This document shows positions 15,889 through 52,024 of a DNA stretch of 64,000 nucleotides, in pieces; the first letter of the stretch is position 1; every line of letters begins with the position of its first letter. Origin of the DNA: an uncultured Lachnospiraceae bacterium. GTDB lineage: Bacteria; Bacillota; Clostridia; Lachnospirales; Lachnospiraceae. A model generated the notes under the pieces. The model was given only the letters and a program-made list of their open reading frames with translations. It did no database searches and was not told the DNA's origin. Both the position numbers and the translations under genes were made by a program. The DNA lies in the NCBI GenBank assembly GCA_946558465.1, contig CAMNTM010000002.1:186001-250000 (forward strand), read 5' to 3'.

Positions 15889-16078
15889 TCTGCTCTTATG
15901 ATTTCATCTATGTTTACCGCTTCCTCTACCCTTACGATTTCATCTGCGTTTACCGCTTCCTTTACGCTTACGATTCCATCTGCGTTTACTTTTTTGTCTA
16001 TGCTTACGATTTCACCTGCGTTTACCGCTTCCTTTACACTTACGGTTTTACCTATGCTTACAGCCTCACTTACGTTTA
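15889..16078. repeat. 18 bp tandem repeat array, about 10 units
   Basis: On the minus strand the units read roughly GTAARCGYAGATGAAATC alternating with GTAAGCGTAAAGGAAGCG, giving an 18 bp period and a stronger 36 bp period (copies at 15901, 15937, 15973, 16009 and 16045). The array begins in the last codons of the permease (CGTAAG TGA) and ends at the ribosome binding site of the transketolase gene. Because 18 is divisible by three, several frames are open through it, including an 86-codon minus-strand frame at 15870-16130 that ends in ATGA with the transketolase start. It is treated here as a repeat, not a gene. Confidence 0.9.
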
Positions 16079-17049
16079 AATACGCGGATAACCTTGTCAC
16101 GCATAACAGAGTTTTCCTTAACTGCGTCAATAGTTACTGCCACAAGTACAACTCCGCCCGTAACAATTGTCTCCCAATATGAGGATACCCGCAGAAGTGT
16201 AATAGATGTTGATACTGTGCTGTTCAAAAGACCGCCAAGTACAGTTCCCACAACCCCTCCGATACCGCCTGTCATCGAGGTGCCCCCAAGTACCGATGCC
16301 GCAATCGTCGGGTTGACCCAGTTTGCACCTATAGAGGCCTGGAAGGAGGCCAGCTTACAGGTCATCATAACCCCGGCGACAGAAGCCAGCAGTCCGCTTA
16401 AGCTATATACAAGCACTTCGACTTTCTCCGTTTTGATGCCTACAATCTTGGCACAATTTCGATTACCGCCCAGTGCATAGACATGCCGTCCAAATTTTGT
16501 ATATTTTAATACAACTGCAAGCACTGTACAGATGACCAGCATAATAATAACAATGGTCGGAAGAAATCCGCCGATCACTCCATTTGCCACAAACTGTGCT
16601 TTTTCCGGAACTCCTACAATCGGGCTTCCTTTTGTTACGATATATACAATACCCTTATATATTTCACCTGTCGCCAATGTCACAATGAACGGAGTCAGAC
16701 GTAAATAAGCAATAAAAAGACCATTTATCATACCGAGTAAAAAACCGACGATACAGGAAATCAAAACAGCAGTCCAAAGACTCATTCCCTGCTCAATCAT
16801 AAGCTTTGCCGCACACATACTGGATACGGAGCCAACTGCTGCTACAGACAGATCAACACCTCCTGTCAGCAGGACAAGCGTCTGTCCGAAGCTGACAATG
16901 ATAATAAAGGAGGCCGCTCTTGTCAGTGTACTGATATTGTATGCTGTCCAGAAATTGCCTGTCACAGCATGCACTGCAATACCTGTCAAAATTGTTACAA
17001 TCAAAACCATCCCTGCAGTCGATTTAAAGAAATCTATTATCTTTTTCAT
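16066..17049 (-). CDS. ribose-type sugar ABC transporter permease
   Basis: A 327-residue membrane protein of the RbsC/AraH type with about eight to ten hydrophobic segments. Family marks are LTGGVDLSVAAVGSVSS near 60-76, TPFIVTLATGEIYKG, GGNRNCAKIVGI and LGGTSMTGGIGG. It forms the membrane channel for the sugar delivered by the binding protein at 18679 and is driven by the ATPase at 17060, 10 bp upstream. Its last codons (FKRK-stop) run into the 18 bp repeat array. Confidence 0.94.
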   Translation of the reverse strand: MKKIIDFFKSTAGMVLIVTILTGIAVHAVTGNFWTAYNISTLTRAASFIIIVSFGQTLVLLTGGVDLSVAAVGSVSSMCAAKLMIEQGMSLWTAVLISCIVGFLLGMINGLFIAYLRLTPFIVTLATGEIYKGIVYIVTKGSPIVGVPEKAQFVANGVIGGFLPTIVIIMLVICTVLAVVLKYTKFGRHVYALGGNRNCAKIVGIKTEKVEVLVYSLSGLLASVAGVMMTCKLASFQASIGANWVNPTIAASVLGGTSMTGGIGGVVGTVLGGLLNSTVSTSITLLRVSSYWETIVTGGVVLVAVTIDAVKENSVMRDKVIRVFKRK

Positions 17050-17059
17050 GATATACCTC

Positions 17060-18556
17060 CTACTGAAATGCCACCTTCAGAACATCCTCTTCTGTGGTCA
17101 TGTCTACTTCCTCTATATAGCCCTTAATACGTCCTTGATGAACAATCATTACACGGTCTGCCAGTGCCAATACCTCCTCCATTTCCGAAGAAATGACTAC
17201 CACAGCTACTCCATTATCTGCAAGCTCTCTTACAAGAGCATGAATCTCCGCTTTTGCATTAACATCTATTCCCCGGGTAGGCTCATCCATAATCAGCATT
17301 TTGACTCCCTTTGCTATCCAGCGTGCTACAATAACCTTCTGTTGATTACCTCCGGACAGATTCTTAATAAGCGCGTCTCTTCCTGCTGTCTTGATTCTGA
17401 ATCTCCTGATATATTCGTCCGTAATTTTACCTGCCTGCTTAAAATTAATGAATCCTTTCTTCTTTAATTGGTCATAAGATGGAAGCATCATATTTTCCAT
17501 CACAGACATTCCCGGAGTAATCCCGTCATGACGTCTCTCCTCCGATATATAACCCATGCCAAGTTTGATTGCCGCACGGGGATCTGTAATATCAATTTCC
17601 TGCCCGGATACATACATTTTTCCTCCTGACTCCGGGCGGGTAATACCAAACACACTTTTAAAGATCTCGGTCCTTCCTGCTCCTACAAGCCCTGCTACAC
17701 AAAGAATTTCACCTTTTCTCACCTGAAAATTTATATCCTGAAATTCACCTTCCCGGTTTAGATTTTCCGCCTCAAAGAAAATCTCATCAGATACATTTCG
17801 CTTTATATGTCTGGACTCTATAACCTTTCTTCCCGCCATATTGGTAATAATTTCTTCCTTCGTGATATCTTTAATCTCCGTTACCTTCACAATCTGTCCA
17901 TCCCGCATAATCGTCGCCCGGTCTGCCTGTTCCATAACCTCATCTAAGTGATGCGTAATAAATATCATGGATGTGCCTGCCTTTTTCAGCCTCTGCATTG
18001 ATGCAAACAAAGATTCTGACTCCCTGTTCGTCAATACAGCGGTAGGCTCATCTAAAATCAACACTCTTGGAGAATATGCAAGTGCTCTTGCAATAGATAC
18101 AAGTTGCTGATAGGCTGCCGAAAGATGCTTTACCTTCTGCAGTACATCTATTTCCACATCCAGCAGCTCCAAAAGCTTCGCCGCCTCTTTCTCAGCTTTC
18201 TTCCAATCTATTTTTATTCCTTTTCCTCTCTCATTTCCTAAAAAGATATTTTCTGCAATTGTCGCCTCAGGAATTAAGTTTAATTCCTGTGGTACAATCA
18301 CGATATGCTTTTTGGAAGCCTCCTTCGGAGAAGAAATATAAACAGGCTGCCCATCCATAAATATTTCTCCTTCATCCATGAGATACTGACCTACCAGACA
18401 GTTCATTAAAGTGCTTTTTCCGGCCCCGTTCTCTCCCAAAAGTGCATGAATCTCTCCCGGCCTGATACTTAAATCCACATTGTCCAGCGCCCTTGTCCCC
18501 GGAAATCTTTTTGTAATTCCCTTCATTTCTACTACAAATCCGCTCAATTCCTTCAC
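17060..18556 (-). CDS. ribose-type sugar ABC transporter ATP-binding protein (tandem ATPase)
   Basis: A 498-residue RbsA/MglA-type ATPase with two fused nucleotide-binding domains. The first has GENGAGKST (Walker A, about 41-49), the signature LSAAYQQL and LILDEPTA. The second has GLVGAGRTE in place of a canonical Walker A, LSGGNQQKV and LIMDEPTRGID. The degenerate second domain is normal for this family. The first codon used is GTG with a close GAGG site; an internal ATG ten codons later is an alternative. A hairpin (18585-18624) lies between it and the binding-protein gene. Confidence 0.94.
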   Translation of the reverse strand: MKELSGFVVEMKGITKRFPGTRALDNVDLSIRPGEIHALLGENGAGKSTLMNCLVGQYLMDEGEIFMDGQPVYISSPKEASKKHIVIVPQELNLIPEATIAENIFLGNERGKGIKIDWKKAEKEAAKLLELLDVEIDVLQKVKHLSAAYQQLVSIARALAYSPRVLILDEPTAVLTNRESESLFASMQRLKKAGTSMIFITHHLDEVMEQADRATIMRDGQIVKVTEIKDITKEEIITNMAGRKVIESRHIKRNVSDEIFFEAENLNREGEFQDINFQVRKGEILCVAGLVGAGRTEIFKSVFGITRPESGGKMYVSGQEIDITDPRAAIKLGMGYISEERRHDGITPGMSVMENMMLPSYDQLKKKGFINFKQAGKITDEYIRRFRIKTAGRDALIKNLSGGNQQKVIVARWIAKGVKMLIMDEPTRGIDVNAKAEIHALVRELADNGVAVVVISSEMEEVLALADRVMIVHQGRIKGYIEEVDMTTEEDVLKVAFQ

Positions 18557-18584
18557 TTCCTCTACTTTTCTTCAGATGATATTT

Positions 18585-33680: not shown

Positions 33681-33724
33681 AAATTGGGGACGGGGTAAAA
33701 TGAATTTTACCCCGTCCCCAATTT
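33681..33724. repeat. perfect 20 bp palindrome overlapping the histidine kinase stop codon
   Basis: Two perfect 20 bp arms (33681-33700 and 33705-33724) surround a TGAA loop; the core is GGGGACGGGGTAAAA. The right arm encodes the last kinase residues KLGTG and its TAA stop. No T-run follows. The core resembles that of the palindrome at 12512-12582, which suggests a repeated palindromic element. Confidence 0.9.
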
Positions 33725-34837
33725 AAAGGAAGCCGTCACTACTGCTCCTCCGTGTATACTATCTGCAATACTCAATGTCCCGCCATGTCTTCTGCACAAC
33801 TCCCTGCTGATATGAAGTCCGATTCCAAAATGCTCGCTGCCTGCCTCTCCCTTATATTCCTGATAATAAGGTTTCAGTGCCTTTTCCTTCTGTTCACTCG
33901 AAAATCCCGGTCCGTCATCTCGGACCGTAAGGAGCAGCTCATTATTTTTATAATCCACATATACCTCTATGGAGGTTCTCGCATACCGGATTGCATTTGA
34001 GAGAAGATTTTCCAGCACTTCCGTAAACAAATTATCGTCCAGTGCAAGCTTTTGATTTTCCCCGCATACCTTGCACTGTATCTGAATATCTCCTATCTGA
34101 TTCAGTGCAAAAATAATCTCCTCAATTTTCTTTTGTATGCTTTCAAGTTCTGTGTTCTCAGGACTAAACGGGATCTCTTCAATGCTTTGGACTCCCTTCA
34201 TCGTACGGCTGTATTCCTCCAGACGTTTTAAATGATCCGCCATAAGAGCCAATGTATCCTGCATCTTTTCCTTACTCACTTTTCCCTCCGGAATATATCT
34301 CGCAAGAAAATCTGTATAACCCTTAAGGACCGTAAGAGGAGTGCGCAAATCATGAGCGAAGGCTGCATTCAGCTCTTTTTGCCGCTCCACGAGACGCCAC
34401 AGCTCTTCCTTATCCCTGACAAGCTCCCGGCGCATCTCATCAAAAGAGCCGCAGAGTCTTCCCATCTCATCAAGACTCTCATATTCCACCTGGAAATCTA
34501 GATCGTTTTCCTTTATCTTTTTCATGCTTTTTTCTAAGATAAGAAGAGGTGTCTTAAGTCTCCTGTCATAAAAGAGAAAAATCAAAAGAATCATTCCTGC
34601 AAATGCATATAAGAATGGACCCCATACCCGCACATATCTAAGCACACGGCATAGTACCTCTGTATGTGCGTGAAATTCTGCCGCCAGCTCCCAATGCCTG
34701 CAGACTGCCATCGTTATATAGGACAGCCCCCATACAACGACTGCAAGCAGAAGCACATATGCTGTCATCGCCTTCCGAAAGGAAAGATTATGAATATACC
34801 TCCACAGATTCACAAATCTTTCATTTACCCAATCCAT
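33707..34837 (-). CDS. sensor histidine kinase
   Basis: A 376-residue membrane kinase with two transmembrane segments (about 24-45 and 70-90), a HAMP-like linker, the H-box FAHDLRTPLTVLKGY (His near 158), the N-box LLSNAIRYA, and the G-boxes DDGPGFS and GIGLHISREL. The short outer loop suggests sensing in or near the membrane. ATG 34837 is used (GGGGAG ten bases upstream), overlapping the response regulator gene by 13 bp. The last codons and stop lie within a perfect palindrome, so the C-terminus may have been altered by that element. Confidence 0.9.
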   Translation of the reverse strand: MDWVNERFVNLWRYIHNLSFRKAMTAYVLLLAVVVWGLSYITMAVCRHWELAAEFHAHTEVLCRVLRYVRVWGPFLYAFAGMILLIFLFYDRRLKTPLLILEKSMKKIKENDLDFQVEYESLDEMGRLCGSFDEMRRELVRDKEELWRLVERQKELNAAFAHDLRTPLTVLKGYTDFLARYIPEGKVSKEKMQDTLALMADHLKRLEEYSRTMKGVQSIEEIPFSPENTELESIQKKIEEIIFALNQIGDIQIQCKVCGENQKLALDDNLFTEVLENLLSNAIRYARTSIEVYVDYKNNELLLTVRDDGPGFSSEQKEKALKPYYQEYKGEAGSEHFGIGLHISRELCRRHGGTLSIADSIHGGAVVTASFKLGTG

Positions 34838-36468: not shown

Positions 36469-37899
36469 TCACACCTCTGTCCTTTTCTCCCCTGTTCTTT
36501 TTTCCTCTGGCAATGTCTTCTCTGAGCTTTTCTCCTCTGGCAATACCTTTTCTGAGCTTTCCTCCTCTGGAAATGTCTCCTGGTGAGACAACTTCCGGAA
36601 ACGCTCTATTTCCTCCAAGCGTCTTTTTACCGCCTCTTCCTCTCCACTCACCGTTGGATGATAGTATTTTCTGTCCTTCAGGGAATCCGGCATACACTGC
36701 ATATGAGTCAGTTTTTCCTCTGTATCATGGGCATACTCATACCCCTTTCCATAATTTAATTCTTTCATAAGTTTTGTAGGCGCATTACGCAGGTTCAGCG
36801 GAACCGGCTCTGCCCGCTGCCGCTTTACATCCTCCTTACACGCCTCACATGCCATATAAAGCGAATTGGACTTGGGCGCCATAGAAAGATACGCCACCGC
36901 ATGTGTCAAATGTACGTCACATTCCGGCATTCCAAGAAAATGACACGCCTGATAAGCTGCCACCGCAACCTGAAGCGCTCTGCTGTCTGCCATACCCACA
37001 TCTTCACTGGCAAAGCGAATCAGCCTCCTTGCAATATACAGCGGGTTCTCGCCGCCCTCCAGCATCCGGCACATCCAGTAAATGGCAGCGTCCGGATCAC
37101 TGTTGCGCATGGACTTATGAAGCGCCGAGATGAGATTATAATGCTCTTCACCATTCTTATCATAAAGCAGGGATTTTCTGCTGATACACTGCATAAGCCC
37201 CTCGTCTGTAACCGTAATCCCCTCCGCACTGATTTCCCCGTTTAAAACCGCTGTTTCCAGTGTATTTAACGCTGTCCTGGCATCTCCGCTTGAAAATGCT
37301 GCAATTGCCCCAAGCTGTTTTTCACTGATTTTTACATGCTGTTCTTTAAAGCCGGCCGGATTTTCAAGTGCACTTTTTAAGAGACGTATAATATCCTTTT
37401 CCTCCAGCGCCTTCAAAACGAACACTCTGCATCGGGATAAAAGCGCAGCATTTACCTCAAAAGAGGGATTTTCCGTCGTTGCACCGATTAAAATTATACT
37501 TCCCTTTTCCACAAATGGTAGAAATGCATCCTGCTGAGCCTTATTAAATCTGTGAATCTCATCCACAAAGAGAACTGTACGAATTCCCAGTCTCCGGCTG
37601 TTCTCTGCCTGGTTCATCACATTCTTGATTTCTTTAATTCCGCTGGTGACAGCACTAAAATTGATAAAATCCGCCTTCGTACTCCCTGCAATAATACTGG
37701 CAAGCGTTGTCTTTCCCACTCCCGGCGGCCCCCAGAAAATCATGGAGGATATCTGATCCTTCTCAATCAGCTGGCGAAGCATCCGGCCCTTTCCCAGCAA
37801 ATGCTCCTGGCCTGCGAAAGCCTCCAGACTATCTGGGCGTACACGGCTCGCAAGCGGAGCAGTGTACCTTCTGTCATCAAATAAAGTCAGCTGTTCCAT
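36469..37899 (-). CDS. rarA: replication-associated recombination protein A (AAA+ ATPase)
   Basis: A 476-residue RarA/MgsA clamp-loader-like ATPase acting at stalled replication forks. It shows FAGQEHLLGKG, Walker A GPPGVGKTT (about 56-64), Walker B LFVDEIHRF, sensor 1 IGATTENPSF, and the C-terminal block with NYGKGYEYAHD. The last 40 residues are a charged tail of about three 10-residue repeats (LPEEKSSEKT type) that is not part of the conserved family core and is encoded by a 30 bp tandem repeat. Confidence 0.95.
   Translation of the reverse strand: MEQLTLFDDRRYTAPLASRVRPDSLEAFAGQEHLLGKGRMLRQLIEKDQISSMIFWGPPGVGKTTLASIIAGSTKADFINFSAVTSGIKEIKNVMNQAENSRRLGIRTVLFVDEIHRFNKAQQDAFLPFVEKGSIILIGATTENPSFEVNAALLSRCRVFVLKALEEKDIIRLLKSALENPAGFKEQHVKISEKQLGAIAAFSSGDARTALNTLETAVLNGEISAEGITVTDEGLMQCISRKSLLYDKNGEEHYNLISALHKSMRNSDPDAAIYWMCRMLEGGENPLYIARRLIRFASEDVGMADSRALQVAVAAYQACHFLGMPECDVHLTHAVAYLSMAPKSNSLYMACEACKEDVKRQRAEPVPLNLRNAPTKLMKELNYGKGYEYAHDTEEKLTHMQCMPDSLKDRKYYHPTVSGEEEAVKRRLEEIERFRKLSHQETFPEEESSEKVLPEEKSSEKTLPEEKRTGEKRTEV
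36500..36595. repeat. 30 bp tandem repeat in the rarA 3' end
   Basis: The plus strand shows a CCTCTGG core at 36504, 36534 and 36564, a 30 bp period with small changes. In the rarA frame the units read FPEEESSEKV, LPEEKSSEKT and LPEEKRTGEK, lengthening the C-terminal tail just before the stop. Confidence 0.85.
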
Positions 37900-39440: not shown

Positions 39441-39480
39441 CTCTTCTCCTCTGCTACATAATTCTTTTCGTTTCATATGT

Positions 39481-39600
39481 CATATATGCTATGGGAGTTC
39501 CGTTATTCCATATATCATATATGCTATAGGAGCTATAGGATTCCCTTTATTCCATATACCATATATGCTATAGGAGCTACAGGATTCCCGTTATTTCATA
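39481..39600. repeat. tandem repeat of about 44 bp spanning the HAD gene stop
   Basis: On the minus strand three copies of a unit begin TATATGGAATAA and contain GGGAATCCTATAG and GCATATATG; lengths are about 43, 44 and 35 bp. The first copy contains the last codons of the HAD gene (ITGIL) and its TAG stop; the others fill the gap to the cupin gene. Confidence 0.88.
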
Positions 39601-40230
39601 CAACCGCTCCACTATATAAGTCGGTTTCAGAACACTGACTGTATAATCTTTACGCCGGCACCATGACAAGGGTGTATCTGCAAAACAGCCGTCATACCCC
39701 ATACTGTCCGCCAGAACTATATCACTTTCTGCATCACCTACATAGAGAACCTTCTCCTTCTCTGCTCCCAGTCTTTTTCTTACGGTCTCGCAGCGCTGAT
39801 TCTTATTTAAGGATGTTATATCGGCACCTGATACGGCAGAAAAATGATTTGTCAAATCATGCAGCTTCAGTATTCTGTCGGCAACACACTGCATCGAATT
39901 TGTAACAACCGCTGTTTTAATCCCGCATTGTTCTACTATTTCCAATGTTTTCCTGATATCTTCTGCAATATATATTTCCTTAATCAGATCATCTATCCTT
40001 GTAAGGCAGAATACCTCCAGTTCCCCAAACAGCTTCGTAAACTCCCTTTCATCAAGGCCCATGCTTTGAAAAATATCTCTTACCGTATTTCCGATTCCTG
40101 CCGCTACTTTCTCCATAGTAACCGGCATAACACATTCGTTAAAAAATCTATAGAACACTTTTTCATGAAAGCTTCTGGAATCTATGAATGTTCCGTCCAT
40201 ATCAAACATAATTAATTTATATCTATACAT
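39577..40230 (-). CDS. HAD-superfamily sugar-phosphate phosphatase
   Basis: A 217-residue HAD hydrolase of the phosphoglycolate phosphatase/beta-phosphoglucomutase subgroup. Motifs are the nucleophile FDMDGTFID (Asp9, Asp11), Ser/Thr in VVTNSM, and the acidic pair in YVGDAESDIVLA near 155-165. A helical cap lies between. It likely dephosphorylates or isomerises a phosphosugar of cluster 2. Its last codons form part of a tandem repeat. Confidence 0.88.
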   Translation of the reverse strand: MYRYKLIMFDMDGTFIDSRSFHEKVFYRFFNECVMPVTMEKVAAGIGNTVRDIFQSMGLDEREFTKLFGELEVFCLTRIDDLIKEIYIAEDIRKTLEIVEQCGIKTAVVTNSMQCVADRILKLHDLTNHFSAVSGADITSLNKNQRCETVRKRLGAEKEKVLYVGDAESDIVLADSMGYDGCFADTPLSWCRRKDYTVSVLKPTYIVERLYEITGIL

Positions 40231-40245
40231 TTCATCCTCATAATA

Positions 40246-40320
40246 AATCTACCAGCACACCAACACCCATCATGCGGATCTATCAGCACGCTAACACTCA
40301 TCATACGAATCTATCAGCAT
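40246..40320. repeat. 31 bp tandem repeat spanning a DeoC-like gene stop
   Basis: On the minus strand GTGCTGATAGATYCG followed by ATGATGRGTGTTRG occurs twice with a 31 bp period, plus a partial third copy. The first unit encodes the last residues (MLIDSYDEC) and the TAG stop of the DeoC-like gene; the others lie before the HAD gene. Confidence 0.88.
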
Positions 40321-40965
40321 ATTGATCCCATTAAGTATAAGCTTATCTGCACCTGCCTCCAGCGCCTCTTCTGCCTTTCCGACTGTATCAAATACGCCAA
40401 ATGCTATCACTTCCAAGTCCCGCCCTGCATATTTTTTAAGTCTTTTTACCTCCTCCGCCGTTCCTCTTTTTATGTCATAAGGCATAAAGGCTGTCGAGAT
40501 TACAATTCCTGCTGCCCGGGCATTTCTTGCTGTACGGCAGACCTTCTCTAAATGGTCATCTTCCATCTCCGCAGCCTCAATAAAAAAATATACCGGTTTT
40601 TCTGCCGCACTGACGCACATCTCCATTTCTGCTTTTAGATTATCCTCGTGCCCGCTCATAAAGTATCCGACTGCCGCCGTAACATAATATGCGTCAGCAC
40701 CTCCATTTTCCCTTTCAAAGGATCTGATTTCCTCTGCCTTAATCTCCGGGTAGGCCGTACCCGCCGGATATGATATGGAAATTCCGGTTTTTATATCCTT
40801 TTTTACAAATTTCTTTGCTGTCTTATAGCTGGAGGGGCCTATCAAAACCTCCTTTACATGATTTGCCGCAGCCTTATAATATAAATTTTCACAATCCTCA
40901 TCCGTCACATAATAATTCGGGATATTGGTCGCAATTGTCCTTCGTAATATTTCTTCTTTAAGCAT
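40291..40965 (-). CDS. divergent DeoC-fold protein without catalytic lysines
   Basis: A 224-residue TIM-barrel protein that can be aligned by eye with deoxyribose-phosphate aldolase: the ISYPAGTAYPEIK strand, ETA-like FIEAAEMEDDHLE, and GIVISTAF at the place of FIKTSTG. The Schiff-base Lys is replaced by Val (about 154), the second Lys (KPAGG in DeoC) is lost, and the Asp of the triad is Tyr. It is thus unlikely to be a normal aldolase. It lies two bases after a second DeoC-like gene, with an excellent GGAGGG site eight bases before the ATG, so it is expressed. Confidence 0.7.
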   Translation of the reverse strand: MLKEEILRRTIATNIPNYYVTDEDCENLYYKAAANHVKEVLIGPSSYKTAKKFVKKDIKTGISISYPAGTAYPEIKAEEIRSFERENGGADAYYVTAAVGYFMSGHEDNLKAEMEMCVSAAEKPVYFFIEAAEMEDDHLEKVCRTARNARAAGIVISTAFMPYDIKRGTAEEVKRLKKYAGRDLEVIAFGVFDTVGKAEEALEAGADKLILNGINMLIDSYDEC

Positions 40966-40967
40966 CT

Positions 40968-41720
40968 CTATATCCCTCCGTATTCTTTCAGCCTTTTCAC
41001 AATAAAGGCATCTGTAATCTCAAGAGCCGCCGCCGTATGGATGTTATTACAGCCCATCTCGCGGTAGCGGAGTACATCTGCCAGTGTCCGGATATTCCCT
41101 GACGGATGGATGTCAAAGCGATTCGGGAACATCCTCTTAATCAGCGCAACCTCCTCAAATGTTACTCCCAGCGTTGCACCCGGATTGACTTTAATAGAAA
41201 CGGTCCCCGCATTATCCAGCGCCCTGCACGTCTCAATAATCTTTGTATCACTCATAAGCGTTGCCGGAATGACAAATGCCAGCCGGTAAAAATCACTTTG
41301 AAACTCATTTACCATCGCATACGCTTCATCCTCGACATCCTGATACCGTCCTGAGAAAACAGCCTGCCAGTCAAGACATACACACACATCGTCCACACCC
41401 ATGCTTCTTAGCTTCTCCAAAGTATTCATCTTTGAGCTAAGCGTAAGTCTCCCCATAGGATAGGATACTGCGCAGTGCAGTTTTACATCACAGCAGTAAT
41501 CACTGAACAGCTCCCTTACCATCGGCACAAATTCCATCTCTGTATCAAATGCCAGCGGCGCCATCTTTGTAGCCTTTAATTTCTCAACGATTTTTATTAC
41601 ATCCTTCTCAGTTCTTGTAATTCCCTGCAGTCCAAAATGGCACAAGGAGAGAAAATCCTTCGCCTCCTGAAATACTTTATCTGCTATTTTCTGGTCCTTA
41701 ACTGTACTAAAATCAAACAT
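40968..41720 (-). CDS. DeoC-like class I aldolase, atypical active site
   Basis: A 250-residue protein of the DeoC/LacD-like aldolase superfamily. The probable Schiff-base Lys177 (VSIKVNPG) is kept. The second DeoC lysine is His205 (DIHPSGNIRT), and the Asp of the DeoC triad appears to be Cys113. This suggests a Schiff-base enzyme with a different substrate. ATG 41720 has AAAGG 11 bases upstream; longer in-frame starts (to 41783) have no site. It is paired with the lysine-free paralogue just downstream. Confidence 0.75.
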   Translation of the reverse strand: MFDFSTVKDQKIADKVFQEAKDFLSLCHFGLQGITRTEKDVIKIVEKLKATKMAPLAFDTEMEFVPMVRELFSDYCCDVKLHCAVSYPMGRLTLSSKMNTLEKLRSMGVDDVCVCLDWQAVFSGRYQDVEDEAYAMVNEFQSDFYRLAFVIPATLMSDTKIIETCRALDNAGTVSIKVNPGATLGVTFEEVALIKRMFPNRFDIHPSGNIRTLADVLRYREMGCNNIHTAAALEITDAFIVKRLKEYGGI

Positions 41721-41793
41721 ATTCCAGTCTACCTTTCTTTTTAACTCCTGTTTCATTTTTCTTAAAATGTGCATAATGTACATGTAAATCTTA

Positions 41794-42555
41794 CTACTTA
41801 CACAAGTACCCGCCGTCTACCGGAATCGTCACGCCGCACAAATAATCCGATGCAGCTGAACACAAAAACAATAGTGTTCCTGTCAAATCATCTGGCGTCC
41901 CCCATCTGCCATAGGGAATTCTTCCCCTTTTATACTCGTAAATCTCCTTATTCTCCTTCATATCACTTGTCATAGGCGTCTCTATAAATCCCGGCGCAAT
42001 TGCGTTTGCATTGATTCCATATCTGCTCCACTCATTCGCAATTGCTTTCGTAAGCTGTACAATTGCACCTTTGGAACTGGCATAAGCCGGAACGTTCGTA
42101 CCTCCGAAATAACTATTCATAGAGGCAATATTGATAATCTTGCCGTATCTGGCTGGAATCATATATTTACCCGCCATTCTTGTCATTGAGAATACGGCGT
42201 TCAGATTGATCTCAAGCACAAACTCCCACATCTCATCCGTAAATTCTTCTATATGTCCTCTTCTCTGCACTCCTGCGGAGTTGACTAGTATGTCCAATCC
42301 TCCTCCAAGCTTTGCTGCGGCTTCCTCAAACGCCCTTTCTCTGTCACCTTTCTCCAACAGATTACAGGAAACCGAAAATGCATTCTCATAACCGCCGAAT
42401 ACCTGCCTAAGCCCAGACATCTGATTATCCATATCTAACATCGCAACAGATGCTCCTGCTTCCAGAAGCGCCCTGGTAAACACACTTCCAATTCCTCCTG
42501 CCGCTCCTGTCACAATCGCCCGTTTTCCTGAAACGGTAAATAAATCCTGCATCAT
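41794..42555 (-). CDS. short-chain dehydrogenase/reductase
   Basis: A 253-residue classical SDR. The cofactor loop GAAGGIGS is at 17-24, NSAG near 92, the catalytic Ser/Tyr/Lys as NIASMNS and YASSKG (about 140-160), and PGFIETPM near 185. It resembles gluconate 5-dehydrogenase and 3-keto sugar reductases. It probably interconverts a keto sugar and its alcohol in the cluster 2 route. Asp at the end of the second strand (MLDMDN) favours NAD(H). Confidence 0.9.
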   Translation of the reverse strand: MMQDLFTVSGKRAIVTGAAGGIGSVFTRALLEAGASVAMLDMDNQMSGLRQVFGGYENAFSVSCNLLEKGDRERAFEEAAAKLGGGLDILVNSAGVQRRGHIEEFTDEMWEFVLEINLNAVFSMTRMAGKYMIPARYGKIINIASMNSYFGGTNVPAYASSKGAIVQLTKAIANEWSRYGINANAIAPGFIETPMTSDMKENKEIYEYKRGRIPYGRWGTPDDLTGTLLFLCSAASDYLCGVTIPVDGGYLCK

Positions 42556-42561
42556 TTCCTC

Positions 42562-45090
42562 CTATTGACTTGCTGTTAAAATCGAACGCTCCATAATCAT
42601 ATCCTGTGTCGCCTCTGCGGAAGTAAAATATCCTGTTTCTGTACCTTCCCGCAGCACTACAATATTGTCTGCGCATCCCAAAAGTTCAGGAAGCTCCGAG
42701 GATATCAGGATAACTGCCATCCCCTTTTTGGCTATTTCTCCGATCAGCTGATGAATCTCTGCTTTAGCTCCTACATCAATCCCCCGCGTAGGCTCATCTA
42801 ATATCAGCACCTTCGGATGCACCGCCATCCATTTTCCAAGAATAACCTTCTGCTGATTTCCTCCTGAGAGCTCAATTACATTCTTTTCATCAGAAACCGT
42901 CTTTACATTCAATCTCTTAATATAAGCATCCGAAAGCATGCTTTCCTCTTTTTTACTGTAAATTCCCAGCCTGCTGATTCTTCGGTAGGAGGGGCATGCA
43001 ATATTCTTTTTAATCGACATATAGGGAATAAATCCTTCTGCCTTTCTGTCCTCTGATACATATACAATTCCTGCATCAATGGCATCCTTAGGTGTTCGAA
43101 TAGAAAGCCTCTTACCTTCTACCGTAATCGTCCCCTCCGATGCTTTGTCAAGACCGAAGATACATTTCATAACCTCCGTTCTTCCTGCTCCTATCAGTCC
43201 GCTGAAACCCAGCACCTCCCCTGCTCTTACTTTAAAGGAAATATTCTGGAATTTTCCCGGACAGGACAGACCGTCTACCTCCATTACTACACCGCCCAGC
43301 TCATTTTTTTCTCTGTCGAATATATTATTTAACTCTCTCCCGACCATCATCTGGATGATCTCTGTTTCACTGATAGCTGCCGTACTTCTGCCGCCTGCAT
43401 ATCTGCCATCCCGCAATACAACTACCCGGTCCGTAATCTCAAAGATTTCCTGCATCTTATGTGAAATATAAATAACAGCCGTTCCTTTATCTTTCAACTG
43501 GCGGATAATTTTAAACAGTCTTTCTTTTTCATTTTCTGTCAAAGAGGAGGTGGGTTCGTCCATAATAATAAGCCATGCATCTGTAGATATTACTTTCGCA
43601 ATCTCTACCATCTGCTGCTCACTGACTGTCAGGTCCTTCACCGGCCTCTTAATATCAATATCTGTAATTCCTATACTTCCTAGAACTTCTTTTGCTTTTT
43701 TCTGCATCTTTTTTGCATCTACGATTCCTGGAATCTTGGACTTTAATTCTTTTCCTAAAAATACATTCTGATATACACTCAGCTCCGGCACCAGCGAGAA
43801 CTCCTGGTGAATCAGTGCGATTCCTGCATCTGCCGCCTTCTGCGTACTGTCTATATTTATTGCTTTTCCGTTTACAGTAATCTGTCCGCCGTCCTTTTTA
43901 TACTCACCTGCCAGTATTTTCATCAGAGTCGATTTGCCGGCTCCATTTTCACCCATAAGTGCCAGAACCTCTCCTTTTTTTACAGACAGCGATACCCTGT
44001 CAAGCGCAATCATACCTGGAAAAGCTTTTATAATCCCCTCCATTTTCAATGATAATTCTTTTGTATTTTTACAATATTCTGTGATGTTACTTTCTTCCTT
44101 CTCTGTGCCGTCCTCTGCTACTATCTGCGGTGTCAGTCTCTTTTCCTTCATAAATACAAAAATTACGTCTACCCCTACTGCAATAAGAATCAAACCGCCC
44201 TTTACCAGATAATCCATAAAGGTTGACACCGACATCAGAGACAATCCGTTTGAAATCTCCCCTACAAGGATAACTCCTAATACGGTCCCTCCTAATGAGC
44301 CGATTCCTCCTACCAGGCTGGTTCCTCCTAGAACAACCGCCGTAATTGCATCAAATTCCAGGTTCTTTCCCGCATAAGGCTGGGCACTGCCCAGCCTTCC
44401 CATTGTAATCAGCGAACCGATACCGACACAGAAGCCTGTGATTGCATATACAGCCATCAAATTCCCTTTCACATGAATTCCCATAGCCCCTGCAGCTCGT
44501 TCATTTCCTCCGATTGCATATAAATACTGGCCGAAGACTGTATTATTCAGCACCTGCCAGCCCGCTATATATAACAGGAGCACGACCCAGAATACAGCAG
44601 GTACACCTAATAACTCGTCTGCACTTAAGGCCTTTACTGCAGGAATCTCCACCTTAACTGCCGCCGCACCAGAAAGCATCATAGCCGCTCCGCCGGCAAC
44701 GGACTGCATGGCCAGAGTCGCAATAAAAGGCGGCATTTTCATATACCCTATTAAAAAGCCATCGCAGACACCGACCAGGATTCCTGTCAAAAGGGCGGCA
44801 CAGATTCCGGCAGCTGCATTCTGTGTAGCTTCTATTACCTTAGCAGTAACAATCCCACATAATGCAACATTTGTACTAACAGACAGATCTATCCCGCCTG
44901 TGAGAATTACGCCTGTCATTCCGATTGCAACAATAGCTAGTACACAGGTTTGTCTGATAATATTCATAAAGTTTGCACTCATTGCAAAATTCGGATTTGC
45001 ACCGGTGAAAAAGATCCCTACTGCCAGAATAATAATAAGCAGCGCAGCATACCTGATATATTTTAATAAGATGCCTTTTGCTTTTCCCAT
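42562..45090 (-). CDS. fused sugar ABC permease and tandem ATPase
   Basis: An 842-residue fusion. Residues about 1-325 are an RbsC-type permease (LTGGIDLSVSTN, MPPFIATLAMQS, GGNERAAGAMGI, LGGTSLVGGIG); a hydrophilic linker (about 326-348) follows; about 350-842 are an RbsA-type double ATPase with GENGAGKST, SEQQMVEIA, IIMDEPTSS, GLIGAGRTE, LSGGNQQKV and LILDEPTRGID. There is no frameshift or stop between the parts. In ribose-type systems these are normally separate genes, as in sugar cluster 1. With the separate permease at 46306, one fusion and one lone permease would give a complete 2 TMD + 2 NBD transporter. Confidence 0.93.
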   Translation of the reverse strand: MGKAKGILLKYIRYAALLIIILAVGIFFTGANPNFAMSANFMNIIRQTCVLAIVAIGMTGVILTGGIDLSVSTNVALCGIVTAKVIEATQNAAAGICAALLTGILVGVCDGFLIGYMKMPPFIATLAMQSVAGGAAMMLSGAAAVKVEIPAVKALSADELLGVPAVFWVVLLLYIAGWQVLNNTVFGQYLYAIGGNERAAGAMGIHVKGNLMAVYAITGFCVGIGSLITMGRLGSAQPYAGKNLEFDAITAVVLGGTSLVGGIGSLGGTVLGVILVGEISNGLSLMSVSTFMDYLVKGGLILIAVGVDVIFVFMKEKRLTPQIVAEDGTEKEESNITEYCKNTKELSLKMEGIIKAFPGMIALDRVSLSVKKGEVLALMGENGAGKSTLMKILAGEYKKDGGQITVNGKAINIDSTQKAADAGIALIHQEFSLVPELSVYQNVFLGKELKSKIPGIVDAKKMQKKAKEVLGSIGITDIDIKRPVKDLTVSEQQMVEIAKVISTDAWLIIMDEPTSSLTENEKERLFKIIRQLKDKGTAVIYISHKMQEIFEITDRVVVLRDGRYAGGRSTAAISETEIIQMMVGRELNNIFDREKNELGGVVMEVDGLSCPGKFQNISFKVRAGEVLGFSGLIGAGRTEVMKCIFGLDKASEGTITVEGKRLSIRTPKDAIDAGIVYVSEDRKAEGFIPYMSIKKNIACPSYRRISRLGIYSKKEESMLSDAYIKRLNVKTVSDEKNVIELSGGNQQKVILGKWMAVHPKVLILDEPTRGIDVGAKAEIHQLIGEIAKKGMAVILISSELPELLGCADNIVVLREGTETGYFTSAEATQDMIMERSILTASQ

Positions 45091-45142
45091 GCGCGTGCTC
45101 CTTTCTAAAAATCTTACCTATCACAATTCTTATACATGCTTA

Positions 45143-46213
45143 TTATTTAAAGTAATCTGCAAATTCCTCTTTATAACCGTCACAAAGCGCGATTGCCTCA
45201 TCCGGAGTTGCAAGCGGTATCCATGACAGATCTATATTACTGGATTCCAGTTTATCTAATACCTCCTGACTGGATACAAGGTGAGACGGAATATAAATCA
45301 GATCATCAACTTCATTTCCCTTCAAAATCTGGTCTACATACAACATACTGAGCCATGCGCCGCGCTTGGAGCCCAGCAGAGTATCTGCCGCCACCTGTCC
45401 TTCATTCATCAGCTCCAATACTTCCAGCTCACCGTCATTACCGCCTACCAGAATATCCTTACCTGAAGCATTAATAACTTCAGCCACACTTGGCGTAGCG
45501 CCGTCTGTCATGCAGATAACTGCATCAATATCATCATAGGCTGTAAGCCAGTTCTGCGTAATCTCTACTGCTTTGGAAGGGTCCCAGTCACATGCCTGAA
45601 CATCAACCAGCTCCACATCTGGGTAATCCTTTAAAGCTTCTTCCATACCTATCGTTCTCTCATCGCTTGCATAATTTCCGGGACTTCCTTGAATTGCACA
45701 GATCTTTCCTTTTCCTCCAAGCTGTTCACAGATGGAAAGTGTAACTCCTTTAAACCCAATCTTGTGCTCATAGGAACATGCATACACCCCTTCTGCTTCT
45801 GTAGGATTAAATATAGACATTGTAGGGATACCCGCTTCTGCTGCCTTTTCTGCTACGTCAATTACTCCTTTGGCATCAACTGCATCAAACAATATTGCAT
45901 CTACACCCTGCTGAATATAGTTTTCAATAATCGCAACTTCATTTTCCAGGCTGTCCTCTGCACTGTTCTTAATGATCTCATAGCCCAGCTCCTCTGCTGC
46001 CTCTTCTGCCACATCCAGATATGTTGTATAAAACGGATTGACATAATTTATCATACATACTCCTATTTTCAGTTTGTCCGAATCTGATTTGCCGGTGCTC
46101 TCCTGTGTGTTTTCCTTAGATTCGGATTTCTCCTCACTTCCCGATGAACAGCCGGCGAGACAGCCAATCATCATCATCGCTGCAGCAATTGCTGCAATCA
46201 CTCTTCTCTTCAT
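45143..46213 (-). CDS. sugar ABC transporter substrate-binding lipoprotein
   Basis: A 356-residue RbsB-type lipoprotein. The signal peptide has a basic start (KRR) and lipobox GCLAGC, then a Ser/Glu/Lys-rich linker. The mature part begins KIGVCMINYVNPFY and has DAILFDAVDAKG and GGNDGELEVL. The start is ATG 46213, placed by AAAGGAG; an in-frame upstream stretch is basic and unlike a signal peptide. It delivers the substrate of sugar cluster 2. Confidence 0.92.
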   Translation of the reverse strand: MKRRVIAAIAAAMMMIGCLAGCSSGSEEKSESKENTQESTGKSDSDKLKIGVCMINYVNPFYTTYLDVAEEAAEELGYEIIKNSAEDSLENEVAIIENYIQQGVDAILFDAVDAKGVIDVAEKAAEAGIPTMSIFNPTEAEGVYACSYEHKIGFKGVTLSICEQLGGKGKICAIQGSPGNYASDERTIGMEEALKDYPDVELVDVQACDWDPSKAVEITQNWLTAYDDIDAVICMTDGATPSVAEVINASGKDILVGGNDGELEVLELMNEGQVAADTLLGSKRGAWLSMLYVDQILKGNEVDDLIYIPSHLVSSQEVLDKLESSNIDLSWIPLATPDEAIALCDGYKEEFADYFK

Positions 46214-46249
46214 ACTTTTTTTCTCCTTTATCTTTTTATTTTTAGGCAT

Positions 46250-46323
46250 TTTCTGCCTGGCGCCCGTTTTATCCGCCGCTGCCTTCGTTTTTCTCACTGC
46301 TGCGTCTACTTTTCTGCCTTCTT
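46250..46323. repeat. degenerate direct repeat at the permease gene end
   Basis: On the minus strand the permease end (AGAAGGCAG … AAAAGTAGACG) is followed about 35 bp later by a diverged copy (CGAAGGCAG … GATAAAACG). The first copy includes the TAG stop. Similarity is weaker than in the other arrays. Confidence 0.45.
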
Positions 46324-47298
46324 TATATTTCTTTTTTGTATCAACGTGCTGAGCAGACTTAACGCTAAAGCCAGAATGATGACAAGACCCTTAAAAAAAT
46401 CCTGTGCAACAGTGGGAATTTTCAAAAGCGTAAGCATATTTCCTATCATTCCTAAAAGAATCACCCCAAGAAATGTTCCGGATATCTTTCCAGAGCCCCC
46501 TGACATACTGGTTCCGCCGATTACTACTGCCGCAATACAATCCATCAGCTGGGCGGAACCGGCGCTGCTCTGCATCACAAGTGTCAGTTTGCTCCCCAGA
46601 AGAATGGAGGCCAGTCCCACACACAGCCCGCCTGCTGTGTAAGTGGCGACCTTATATCTGTCCACATTAATTCCTGCAAGACGTGCATTCTTCTCGTCTG
46701 AGCCAATGGCATAAATATAGGCTCCAAATCTTGTCTTATTCAGTACAACTGAACCTATTATCATAACCACTGCCATAATAATAGTTTCTGTAGAAATACC
46801 AAGAACATCGCTTTTTCCTATGATATTAAACACCTCATGGTTCAGCATCAGCCGAAGTCCTGAGCCTACCATATTCAGCGCTCCCTGGGTAAGCGACATC
46901 GTAGCCAGCGTCGCTATAAATGGCGCAATCCGCATCCTGGTGATAATCATCCCATTTATAAAACCAATCAAAGTACAGGACAGTATCGCTGCTGCTATCG
47001 CAGCCCAGACATATCCCGTATTCGTAAATATGGTTCCGCATACAACAGCTCCAAATGCGACGGAATATCCCATAGACAAATCAATCCCTCCTGTAATAAT
47101 AATCATCATCATTCCGACAGCCATCACGCCCACTACAGAATACTGATACAAAATATTAATAATATTGGCAGCCGTCAGAAATTTCGGATTGATTACATTT
47201 GCGGCTGCGGCAAACACAGCCATAATAACAAGCAGCATAATTCCTTTCATGTCTGTACTGCTTAAGCCTCTTTTCGTCTTTATCACTCCCACCTGCAC
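46306..47298 (-). CDS. ribose-type sugar ABC transporter permease
   Basis: A 330-residue RbsC-type permease with about nine hydrophobic segments and the marks ITGGIDLSMGYSVAFG, APFIATLATMSLTQG, GSDEKNARLAGI and IGGTSMSGGSG. It is probably the partner of the permease half of the fusion at 42562, since no other ATPase is present in the cluster. It starts seven bases after the FGGY kinase gene. Confidence 0.94.
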   Translation of the reverse strand: MQVGVIKTKRGLSSTDMKGIMLLVIMAVFAAAANVINPKFLTAANIINILYQYSVVGVMAVGMMMIIITGGIDLSMGYSVAFGAVVCGTIFTNTGYVWAAIAAAILSCTLIGFINGMIITRMRIAPFIATLATMSLTQGALNMVGSGLRLMLNHEVFNIIGKSDVLGISTETIIMAVVMIIGSVVLNKTRFGAYIYAIGSDEKNARLAGINVDRYKVATYTAGGLCVGLASILLGSKLTLVMQSSAGSAQLMDCIAAVVIGGTSMSGGSGKISGTFLGVILLGMIGNMLTLLKIPTVAQDFFKGLVIILALALSLLSTLIQKRNIKKAEK

Positions 47299-47305
47299 CC
47301 CTCCT

Positions 47306-48829
47306 TCATCTTATCTTTGACATTTTCTGAAATGGTTTTTTAAGCGCTTGATTTATTTCCTTAAATACCTCGAACATTTCGCGGTATCTGCTTTGTGTAT
47401 CCTTAAAGGGCTCATACCTTTCCTTATATTTTCCGACAGTGATCTTTGCGGCTTCTATCTCATTTTTGTATACTCCTGTACCTGTCATGGCCAGCATGGC
47501 CGCGCCCAGCGCGGTACACTCGTCATGAATTGGAACTACGATTTCTTTGTCATAGATATCTGCCTTTATCTGGGACCAGAGCGGACTGTTTGAAGCTCCC
47601 CCTGTATGAATAACCGTATTGATTACATCATATTTTTCAAATTCTTCGTAATACCTTTGATGCTCAAAAGCTACACCTTCCATCACTGCCCGAATCAAAT
47701 GCTCTGTACTTGTCGCCGGCGTTATTCCAAAAAATACACCCTTCGCATGATTAAGCTCCATCTGTCTGAGTCCCTGCAGATACGGAAAAAACAATACTCC
47801 CTCCGCGCCATGAGGAACTCTTCCGGCCTGCTCGCTCAGATATTCATAGCCGTCTCCGTCTATTCCTTCTATCTCCTTTTTACATAGAACATCTCTTGCC
47901 CACCGAAGTCCGCCTCCCGACGAGTCAATACAACAATACGGTGTCCATCCCTTTATTACATGACGTACATTCGTAATATCTGTATTCAGAACAGGCTCCT
48001 GATTGTAAAAACCTACGATCGAACCGGTTCCTGTTACATCAAAGCCGAAGCCCTTCTTCACCATCCCGGACCCATAGAGAGCACACAGCATATCACCGCC
48101 TCCGCAGACTACCTTTATCCCGGCAGGAAGTCCCGTCTCGTCTGCGGCTTCTGCCGTAATGGTTCCAATTACCGCGTGGCTTTCGTATATATGCGGAAGC
48201 TTCTCCTTATCGAGCCCCAGAAGACTTACCGCCTCTTCAGACCAGTCAGCCTTTTTTCTGTCAAATACACCCGTTCCGGAAGCTTCCGAATAATCTGTAG
48301 CTATCTCGCCAGTAAGCCTGTAATTGATATAGTCTTTTGCACTGACAAACTTACAGGTCTTTTCATATTTTTCAGGACAATGCTCTTTTATCCATTTTAT
48401 TTTGATACCCATAAGGTGCGGAGCAAAGGGATTCCCCGTAAGATTCTGATACCAGGCGGAAGCATATTCTTTTCCCAAATCTTCTACAAGTCCGCCTGTC
48501 CGCTTATCACAGTACAGCTGAACCTCTTCTTCCACCAGATTTCCGTCCGGCCCGACTGCCACCGGTGAATGCATCACTGCGTCAACTCCGACAGCCCGAA
48601 TCTGATTCAGTGAAACAGCCGGGTTTTTCCCAAGCTCACAGATACTTTTTACAATCAGATCCCACCAAAGTCCGGGACTCTCTACCGCCCATCCGGAAGC
48701 AGGCACATGCATATACTGTCTTTCCGAATGCTTCGCAAGCATCATTCCCTCTGAATCAAAGATACAGACCTTCACGCTCTGTGTCCCTATATCAACCCCC
48801 ATAAATAACGGCTTCCAAAACTCTTTCAT
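47306..48829 (-). CDS. FGGY-family carbohydrate kinase, xylulokinase-like
   Basis: A 507-residue sugar kinase with GVDIGTQSVKVCIFD at the N-terminus, the catalytic Asp in GGGDMLCALYGSG (about 246), TGTGS and HTGGASNSPLW (about 410). It most resembles xylulose/gluconate-type FGGY kinases. It is the second gene of sugar cluster 2, after the GldA-like dehydrogenase, and probably phosphorylates the ketose or keto acid made by one of the two dehydrogenases of the cluster. Confidence 0.9.
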   Translation of the reverse strand: MKEFWKPLFMGVDIGTQSVKVCIFDSEGMMLAKHSERQYMHVPASGWAVESPGLWWDLIVKSICELGKNPAVSLNQIRAVGVDAVMHSPVAVGPDGNLVEEEVQLYCDKRTGGLVEDLGKEYASAWYQNLTGNPFAPHLMGIKIKWIKEHCPEKYEKTCKFVSAKDYINYRLTGEIATDYSEASGTGVFDRKKADWSEEAVSLLGLDKEKLPHIYESHAVIGTITAEAADETGLPAGIKVVCGGGDMLCALYGSGMVKKGFGFDVTGTGSIVGFYNQEPVLNTDITNVRHVIKGWTPYCCIDSSGGGLRWARDVLCKKEIEGIDGDGYEYLSEQAGRVPHGAEGVLFFPYLQGLRQMELNHAKGVFFGITPATSTEHLIRAVMEGVAFEHQRYYEEFEKYDVINTVIHTGGASNSPLWSQIKADIYDKEIVVPIHDECTALGAAMLAMTGTGVYKNEIEAAKITVGKYKERYEPFKDTQSRYREMFEVFKEINQALKKPFQKMSKIR

Positions 48830-48865
48830 CTCATATCACCTCTCTGCTGCCTGTGACCTTCCTCT

Positions 48866-48913
48866 GTTATTTTCATTTATTATTTTCATCTACTTTTTTT
48901 CATCTACTTTTTT
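48866..48913. repeat. 14 bp tandem repeat spanning the GldA-like gene stop
   Basis: On the minus strand AAAAAAGTAGATGA occurs at 48913-48900 and 48899-48886, followed by a decayed 13 bp copy. As 14 is not a multiple of three, the same bases read as Val-Asp-Glu in the first copy and give the TAG stop in the second. Confidence 0.8.
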
Positions 48914-50005
48914 CTTCGTCTCATTCCCCAGTCTGTCAACCGTTAAAATTGCTTCTCGAATATTCGGAACGGATATTTCCATAGGTTCCGAATCCCAGAA
49001 TTTGTCGAACGAAGCTTCTGCAATCCTTTCTGCCGCCTGTTCCTTATCTTCTGTTATACCCAAATCCTCTAAGGTAACCGGAAGCTTTAGTTCATAACAG
49101 AACCGAAACAGCTCTCTTAACAGCCCGCCGCCCAGACATTCCAAATACACCTGGCACAGTGTTCCAAATGCAACTTTCTCGCCATGCAGAATATCTTTAC
49201 ATGCTTCCACTGCACCAATTCCACTGCTGACAGAATGTGCTCCGGCACAGCCTGTATTTTCAAATCCCAGCCCGCTTAGCAATATGTTCGCTTCAATAAT
49301 ATACTCAAGCTCCTGTGTAACCTGATGTCTTTCGGCATCCCTTACTGCCTGTACGGCATACCTTCGCAGAGTCTCATAGCATGTCTGGGCAATGCACATA
49401 GATAAACGTGTCCTGACACAATTTTTACCCGCAAAATTATCTGTACCTGCTCTTTCATTTGCTCTGGCTTCAAAATATGTAGCCAGAGCGTCCCCTATCC
49501 CGGCACGAAGGAACCGTATCGGCGCATCCGCAATAATCTGGCTGTCTACCAGCACCAGACTGGGATTCTGTGCGCATCGAATGACTTTTCGCTCATTATC
49601 TGCTCCGTCATAGACAATTGTTAAAGCGCTGCAGGGGGCATCTGTAGAGGCAGTCGTCGGTATACTGATAAACGGAAGATGCATCAGGTGGGCAATATAT
49701 TTTCCGCAGTCTAATGTCTTTCCGCCGCCAAATGCGATTACATAATCTGCTCCATGCTGCTTTACTAAAAAGCAGCACCGTTCTACCTCTTTGTGGTTAT
49801 TTTCTCCTCCAAAATATGCCAATATACACTTTGCATTTTTTTGAAGAAATTCTTTTTTCAATTTTTCCGAATATGTATCCCTGAAAAAAACATCCATTAA
49901 AATAAATGCAGCCTTTCCATATTGTCTCGTATATTCAGGCAGCTCTTCAATAATCCCAGCTGCCTGAATATACTTTCCAGGACTCACATAGCCGATCTTC
50001 TTCAT
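48890..50005 (-). CDS. glycerol dehydrogenase-like (GldA family) polyol dehydrogenase
   Basis: A 371-residue metal-dependent polyol dehydrogenase of the GldA/DHQ-synthase-like superfamily. Marks are FGGGKTLDCGKYIA (NAD pyrophosphate, about 93-106), PTTASTDAPCSAL (about 117), the metal Asp in GDALATYFEARA, and His in GAHSVSSGIG and LHGEKVAFG. It is the first gene of sugar cluster 2 and probably oxidises a polyol with NAD. Its C-terminal residues (VDEKK) come from a short tandem repeat. Confidence 0.9.
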   Translation of the reverse strand: MKKIGYVSPGKYIQAAGIIEELPEYTRQYGKAAFILMDVFFRDTYSEKLKKEFLQKNAKCILAYFGGENNHKEVERCCFLVKQHGADYVIAFGGGKTLDCGKYIAHLMHLPFISIPTTASTDAPCSALTIVYDGADNERKVIRCAQNPSLVLVDSQIIADAPIRFLRAGIGDALATYFEARANERAGTDNFAGKNCVRTRLSMCIAQTCYETLRRYAVQAVRDAERHQVTQELEYIIEANILLSGLGFENTGCAGAHSVSSGIGAVEACKDILHGEKVAFGTLCQVYLECLGGGLLRELFRFCYELKLPVTLEDLGITEDKEQAAERIAEASFDKFWDSEPMEISVPNIREAILTVDRLGNETKKKVDEKK

Positions 50006-50268: not shown

Positions 50269-50274
50269 TATATT

Positions 50275-50308
50275 AAAACCGTCAGTTTTACGGCGGTTTT
50301 AATTTTTT
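50275..50308 (+). terminator. terminator of the tRNA-Gly gene
   Basis: AAAACCG (50275-50281) and CGGTTTT (50294-50300) form a stem followed by AATTTTTT, seven bases after the tRNA. Confidence 0.8.
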
Positions 50309-50356
50309 ATGACAAATTTCATGGTGTATAAAACCAGATAAGACCCAACAAAAGCA

Positions 50357-50393
50357 AAAACCCGTCAAAGGAATCTTTCTTTGACGAGTTTTT
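50357..50393. terminator. bidirectional terminator between tRNA-Gly and ung
   Basis: CGTCAAAG (50363-50370) and CTTTGACG (50379-50386) pair perfectly. The flanks are A-rich on the left and AGTTTTT on the right, giving T-runs on both strands. It ends ung and backs up the tRNA terminator. Confidence 0.85.
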
Positions 50394-50442
50394 ATTATCT
50401 AAATTCCAAAAAAGCTCTCACTGCTTTATCTATATGATCTAT

Positions 50443-51111: not shown

Positions 51112-51158
51112 GTATATTCCTCCTAAACATTTATCACTAGTTCATAATTCCTATATCC

Positions 51159-51920
51159 CTACAGTCTCACAGACACTCCCTGCTTTTGCAGGAATTCCTT
51201 CACCTGACGTATTTCCAGCTCTTTGTAGTGGAATAAGGAAGCGGCAAGCGCTGCATCTGCGCCGCCTTCTGTCAGCGCATCATAAAAATGCTCCAAAGTC
51301 CCTGCTCCGCCTGAGGCTATCACTGGAATCGACACGGCCTCTGCAATTGTCTTCGTAAGCCCCAGGTCATAGCCTGCTTTTGTTCCGTCACAATCCATGC
51401 TGGTCAGAAGAATCTCGCCGGCTCCCAGCCTTTCAGCCTTCTCTGCCCACTCTACTGCGTCGATCCCCACATCAATTCTTCCCCCGTTTTTATAAATATT
51501 CCAGCCATTTCCATCTGCCCGCTTCTTAGCGTCAATCGCCACTACCACACACTGACTGCCAAATTTATCTGCCGCATCAGAGATCAGCTCCGGCGTGTTT
51601 ATAGCCGAGGAATTAATTGATATCTTATCTGCCCCTTCTCGCAAAAGTGTCCGAAAATCCTCTACCGTACGTATGCCTCCGCCCACTGTAAATGGAATAA
51701 ATACGGTTTCCGCCACTTTCCGCACCATATCCACCACAGTCTCTCTCGCATCAGATGAGGCCGTAATATCAAGAAACACCAGCTCATCTGCCCCAGCACT
51801 GTCATAGGCCTTTCCGATCTCCACCGGATCACCTGCATCTCTTAAATCTACAAAATTCACACCCTTTACTACTCTGCCGTTATTTACATCTAAGCAAGGG
51901 ATTATCCTTTTCGTATGCAT
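51159..51920 (-). CDS. hisF: imidazole glycerol phosphate synthase, cyclase subunit
   Basis: A 253-residue TIM-barrel cyclase that makes imidazole glycerol phosphate and AICAR. Marks are [18 protein letters not shown] with the catalytic Asp11, FTVGGGIRT (about 79), AIDAKK and the second catalytic Asp in [13 protein letters not shown] (about 130), and IASGGAG. AICAR made here feeds the formyltransferase at 29613. It lies after hisH, but no other his genes are in the window. Confidence 0.97.
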
Positions 51921-51968
51921 CCTTTTTTCTGCCTTTCTGTTTTTCTGTTCTCTGCATTCCTGTACATT

Positions 51969-52024
51969 TTCTATACAGTAAGCTTCTATACAGCAAACTT
52001 CTATACAATAAACTTTTATATATC
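51969..52024. repeat. 15 bp tandem repeat spanning the hisH stop
   Basis: TTCTATACAGTAAGC, TTCTATACAGCAAAC and TTCTATACAATAAAC follow one another at 51969, 51984 and 51999, then a diverged copy from 52014 that contains the hisH stop codon and last codons. The array fills the 95 bp gap before hisF. Confidence 0.9.

Follow-up and report, generated by a model that had tools for sequence, protein, structure and literature searches.

Tandem repeats at gene ends in a Lachnospiraceae genome segment probably reflect ordinary local duplication in short operon gaps

We studied short tandem repeat arrays at the ends of genes in a 64,000-nucleotide stretch of the draft genome of an uncultured Lachnospiraceae bacterium (hereafter the window, C2:186001-250000; the genome comprises 3.12 Mb in 34 contigs). 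A first-pass annotation had listed seven such arrays and had proposed a recurrent process of duplication directed at stop codons. Our analysis makes it very likely that the arrays are ordinary local tandem duplications constrained by short operon gaps and that no special process acts at stop codons. The overlap with stop codons appears to be largely imposed by the geometry of these gaps: outside the window, arrays covered stop codons as often as neutral placement predicts, and in the whole sample, window included, the overlap tracked short gaps.

Arrays were detected with Tandem Repeats Finder (TRF), with score 30 in the window and score ≥50 in a larger sample of the genome, and the self-alignment score of each array was compared with 300 base-composition shuffles. 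Six of the seven listed arrays scored above every one of their 300 shuffles. All six lie on the minus strand, and copies within them diverge by 10-24%. TRF and the self-alignment test agree on all six. Five arrays (permease, HAD, DeoC-like, GldA-like and hisH) overlap the stop codon of their gene and extend towards the next gene. In a separate test of 1194 gene ends with one dinucleotide shuffle per end, none of the shuffled ends reached a score of 16, which all five stop-overlapping arrays passed. Up to and including the stop, the self-match comprises only 8 bases for the permease and 5 for hisH (24 to 29 for HAD, DeoC and GldA).

The array of the sugar ABC permease gene (15883..16068) has a 36-bp unit consisting of 2 x 18 bp, with ~5 copies and 76% match. 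Its first bases are those of the stop codon (16066-16068), and it stops ~10 bp short of the start of the next gene at 15873. The self-match spans -8 to beyond +150 around the stop and has a score of 64 versus a shuffle maximum of 14. The HAD phosphatase array (39474..39616; 44-bp unit, 2.6 copies; score 49.5 versus 14.5) covers the stop 39577-39579 of gene 39577-40230 and occupies most of a 136-bp gap. At the DeoC-like gene (40291-40965), an array with a 31-bp unit and 2.4 copies (40246..40319; score 27 versus 13) covers the stop 40291-40293, and the gap is 60 bp. The gap is also 60 bp behind the GldA-like dehydrogenase gene (48890-50005), where an array with a 14-bp unit and 3-4 copies (48859..48914; score 17.5 versus 13) covers the stop 48890-48892. 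The hisH array (51969..52020; 15-bp unit, 3.5 copies; score 24.5 versus 13) lies over the stop 52016-52018. A second small array on the same strand (51924..51949; 8-bp unit, 3.2 copies, TRF score 38) is present in the gap after hisH, and the gene that follows is, judging from its N-terminus, presumably hisF. As the first-pass annotation had noted, rarA is an exception: its array (36497..36578; 30-bp unit; score 36 versus 12) is located wholly inside the coding frame (36469-37899).

The consensus units, compared by eye, differ in length and sequence and are unrelated between loci, in agreement with the earlier view of local duplication and not of one mobile repeat. No shared unit, fold or codon-level constraint was found among the arrays of the window. 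The seventh candidate, at the end of a second permease gene (46250..46323, minus strand), was not confirmed. Its score of 10 was matched by 7% of the 300 shuffles (P 0.07), and TRF at score 30 lists nothing there. The next open frame starts 8 bp past the stop of this gene.

For the comparison with the genome, we used a sample of 1.636 Mb of the 3.12 Mb, which consists of concatenated stretches and includes the window. Genes were predicted by a simple hexamer-based caller (frames of at least 50 codons), for which starts and small genes are uncertain and stops are firmer. The 1.64 Mb contained 45 arrays with a TRF score of at least 50 that touched non-coding DNA (hereafter non-coding arrays), and 12 of these lay over a stop. 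Of the 38 that lie outside the window, 7 overlapped a stop. Three of these 7 were an unrelated dispersed palindrome described below, and the share without the palindrome was 4 of 35. These counts were compared with a neutral placement model of single duplications, with 26 unit lengths taken from the array lists. A duplication was permitted if it left the upstream protein intact and did no damage to the last 15 bp ahead of the downstream start. Enumeration over 1547 neighbouring gene pairs predicted that 14.5% of duplications cover a stop when start duplications are forbidden and 16% when they are allowed; a sampled version of the model gave 15-17%. At a rate of 17%, the counts outside the window corresponded to P = 0.47 (7 of 38) and P = 0.87 (4 of 35). 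Since 7 of 38 agrees with the neutral 14.5-17%, there is no excess of arrays at stops outside the window in this sample, and the 1.64 Mb covered, of 3.12 Mb in all, did not bear out the proposed enrichment at stop codons. With the window included, 12 of 45 arrays were over a stop (P 0.07 at 17%).

The overlap depended on the gap. In same-strand gaps, measured after subtraction of the array, the stop was covered in 7 of 8 cases at ≤60 bp and in 4 of 24 cases at larger gaps. For same-strand gaps of ≤100 bp, the neutral model placed 53-56% of the duplications over the stop. When the ancestral gap of the eight short-gap arrays was taken as the remaining gap plus one unit and start duplications were forbidden, the predicted share was 31-100%. 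With the hisH unit and the gap lengths of 15 or 18 bp seen in relatives, 100% of the permitted positions cover the stop.

According to this explanation, each array would have begun as an independent short tandem duplication of whatever sequence occupied the operon junction. Slippage or unequal pairing would then add copies, and point mutations would make them diverge to the extent given above. Selection would purge duplications inside genes unless the frame is kept, as with the 30-bp unit of rarA, and also duplications that disrupt the start of the downstream gene or its ribosome-binding site. If the operon gap is very short, the harmless positions that remain would mostly or without exception lie over the stop codon. 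Such positions should be harmless because the first copy preserves the upstream protein and its stop and the sequence before the next start is unaltered. That slippage was the mutational step and that the arrays are neutral are inferences. This has a cautionary side: repeats that hold the last codons and the stop need no special mechanism in short operon gaps, because such gaps leave few other harmless duplication sites.

We compared the hisH and rarA ends, the two of the six sites at which relatives offered a matching counterpart, with those of five species of the same genus, with one genome per species. The gap downstream of hisH is 95 bp here versus 15, 18, 13, 18 and 6 bp in the five species, in which a ribosome-binding site adjoins or overlaps the stop. 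The C-terminus of RarA is 34-38 residues longer here than in the same species. Most of the extra tail is the 30-bp array read in frame, which gives a 10-residue repeat. Judged from this sequence comparison, the hisH and rarA arrays are lineage-specific insertions. The arrays show that operon gaps and C-terminal tails lengthen within one genus, by ~80 bp for the hisH gap and by 34-38 residues for RarA. The suggestion of variable C-termini holds for rarA only, and even there the substitutions in the tail were unconstrained across codon positions (14/10/9).

For HAD, DeoC and GldA, the five same-genus genomes lack a close relative, with identities of 22-31% at best. At a cut-off of E 1e-20, a DeoC relative (58% identity) was present in 1 of 298 other genomes of the family, and there the gap was comparable only on the other side of DeoC. 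For the transketolase half adjoining the permease, a 75% relative was found in two species, with a different sequence in the 300 bp upstream. At another locus, two sister species share closely similar 33-bp units in 2.4 versus 3.4 copies, as copy gain or loss within the genus would give.

Several observations weigh against ordinary duplication in short gaps as the full explanation. The choices made for the neutral model (15-bp ribosome-binding zone, 26 unit lengths) were our own. Five of the eight short-gap arrays come from the window itself, and outside the window the comparison of short and larger gaps was reduced to 2 of 3 versus 4 of 23. Five of the 12 stop-overlapping arrays fall within these 64 kb. 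A scan statistic on the concatenated stretches, which asks how often some 64-kb segment would contain five if gene ends were drawn at random, yielded P 0.0075, a post hoc value. Where 1.2 non-coding arrays were expected in the window, 7 were present (Poisson P 0.0003, uncorrected). Of these, 5 lay over a stop (binomial P 0.002 at 17% and 0.03 at 30%); for the window's own 61 gene pairs the neutral model predicts 19-21%. In one relative, G003, 4 arrays overlapped a stop in 161 genes. Finally, the HAD and hisH arrays fold better than their shuffles. The cluster statistics are all post hoc, as the window was chosen for this very pattern, and the densest 64 kb for all 45 non-coding arrays was unremarkable (8 arrays, P = 0.11). 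The neutral model does not explain the clustering in the window. A regional hot spot, with tandem duplication raised at the operon junctions of this segment and not genome-wide, would account for it; we regard this as improbable. If it were true, the last codons and stops of genes in this segment would be duplicated again and again.

The same cluster can be read in favour of a mutational process that acts at stops within operons, such as duplication where ribosomes or polymerases pause. Gene ends with an array numbered 5 of 61 in the window versus 7 of 1496 outside (Fisher P 5e-5, computed with 60 ends and post hoc), and in the table for the genome sample 12 arrays overlapped stops versus 3 that overlapped starts. 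In 200 kb from each of four relatives, analysed at TRF score 50, G003 had the 4 stop-overlapping arrays mentioned above and G002 had 1 in 181 genes, but none was found in G004 (188 genes) or G005 (201 genes). Moreover, 4 of the 6 over-stop entries of G003 with a self-match score of at least 15, which represent three places, were the dispersed palindrome. Outside the window, the share is that of harmless random placement, both with the palindrome (7 of 38) and after its removal (4 of 35). A process directed at stops, as proposed by the first-pass annotation, is therefore unlikely.

A further possibility is that the arrays are retained to space, insulate or couple the translation of neighbouring genes. 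An open frame of 76 codons runs through the permease array (15870..16100, minus strand) in a different frame from the permease. Its stop and the start of the next gene share bases (TGA and ATG in ATGA), which recalls the frames described for MIRUs (see below). However, substitutions between the permease copies were even across codon positions (13/10/9 at lag 36), and changed codons comprised 4 synonymous and 20 non-synonymous cases. The tiled unit remained open after random substitution with a probability of 0.53. The frame had no Pfam match at E 0.01. We rejected a coding function in view of the missing codon-position bias and Pfam match; the frame is probably an accident of the 36-bp period. 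The folding z-scores were -2.7 for HAD, -0.7 for DeoC, 1.2 for GldA, -2.7 for hisH, 0.3 for the permease and 0.3 for rarA, and no common RNA structure was seen among the six arrays. No evidence for a spacing or insulating role was found, though two of the six arrays fold better than shuffles. Units and folds differ from array to array, and the hisH pair of the five relatives has a gap of 6-18 bp, which makes retention for such functions very unlikely. That the arrays are assembly or binning artefacts is hardly credible: apart from the draft state of the genome in 34 contigs nothing direct points to it, the copies diverge by 10-24%, which assemblers are not known to produce, and sister species have comparable arrays elsewhere.

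The dispersed palindrome found at gene ends consists of GGGGACGGGG, 6-24 bases and CCCCGTCCC, with half-units GGGACAGGG. We counted 43 full palindromes in 1.64 Mb, of which 32 lay no more than 40 bp from a stop and 9 overlapped one, and 110 of 177 GGGACNGGG sites were within 60 bp of a stop; both counts are without a placement control. In the window, a histidine kinase gene (33707-34837) has such a palindrome (33686-33718) over its stop. Sites of this type occurred at 5-28.5 per 100 kb in the four sampled relatives (G002-G005). The sole match to a Y1 transposase (PF01797) in the genome, at C6:140831-141736, is flanked on both sides by these GGGAC motifs, an arrangement as in REP/RAYT systems (PMC2817692). 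The transposase frame seems to be divided over two reading frames. Two arrays with 66-bp units (C1:193130-193331 and C6:56019-56151) are apparently related, with a copy match of 97-98% within each, and perhaps represent a second dispersed repeat family.

The HAD, DeoC-like and GldA-like genes belong to a sugar operon (39577-50005) together with an FGGY kinase and a fused transporter. The fusion (42562-45090) has 842 residues and combines a sugar ABC permease (residues ~10-308) with a double ATPase (~344-839). Both halves are matched by relatives in Runella defluvii (47%, best segment) and in a Clostridiales metagenome-assembled genome (39%); a scan of contigs for this fusion returned 7 distant loci and no relative from the genus. 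The patchy distribution of DeoC, HAD and GldA may reflect either gain or repeated loss. A 27-bp in-frame repeat with 2.9 copies (4735-4813) is present in the histidine-rich N-terminus of a heavy-metal P-type ATPase; it is coding and is absent from the non-coding array counts.

In the open-licence literature, as covered by titles and the beginnings of abstracts, we found no paper devoted to arrays at the stop codons of bacteria. Similar repeats are known from other systems. Archaeal Borg repeats arise independently as units that are intergenic or whose first copy lies wholly or partly in the end of a gene; units in frames are divisible by three, and the repeats are perfect, A-rich and pervasive according to PMC9879509, which also discusses slippage for tandem repeats. 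The arrays described here resemble them in their independent units, their placement at gene ends and the 3n length in frames, whereas our arrays are diverged and few. The mycobacterial MIRUs are repeats adjacent to genes and contain a frame that is coupled at -4 nt to the gene that follows; they are mobile and insert at start codons, as stated in PMC12548453. The overlap of the permease-array frame with the next gene would be alike, though without a sign of coding constraint here. In contrast to MIRUs, our units are unrelated and form no single dispersed family, and such a frame was seen only in the permease array. For Beggiatoaceae, intergenic TAACTGA direct repeats are described in PMC4679880. 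These are likewise intergenic direct repeats with stop codons in the unit, but one heptamer occurs there at many sites, whereas each array here has its own unit.

The closest counterpart is the bacterial minisatellite or variable number tandem repeat. Such repeats share with our arrays short unrelated tandem units in several diverged copies, a mostly non-coding location and a 3n length inside a gene (rarA here); a further likeness is the unequal copy number of the 33-bp array in the two sister species. The divergence of 10-24% between copies is a difference. The arrays are real and, their clustering in the window apart, ordinary: they are small local bacterial minisatellites, a known kind of repeat, for which local duplication limited by short operon gaps is the best explanation.

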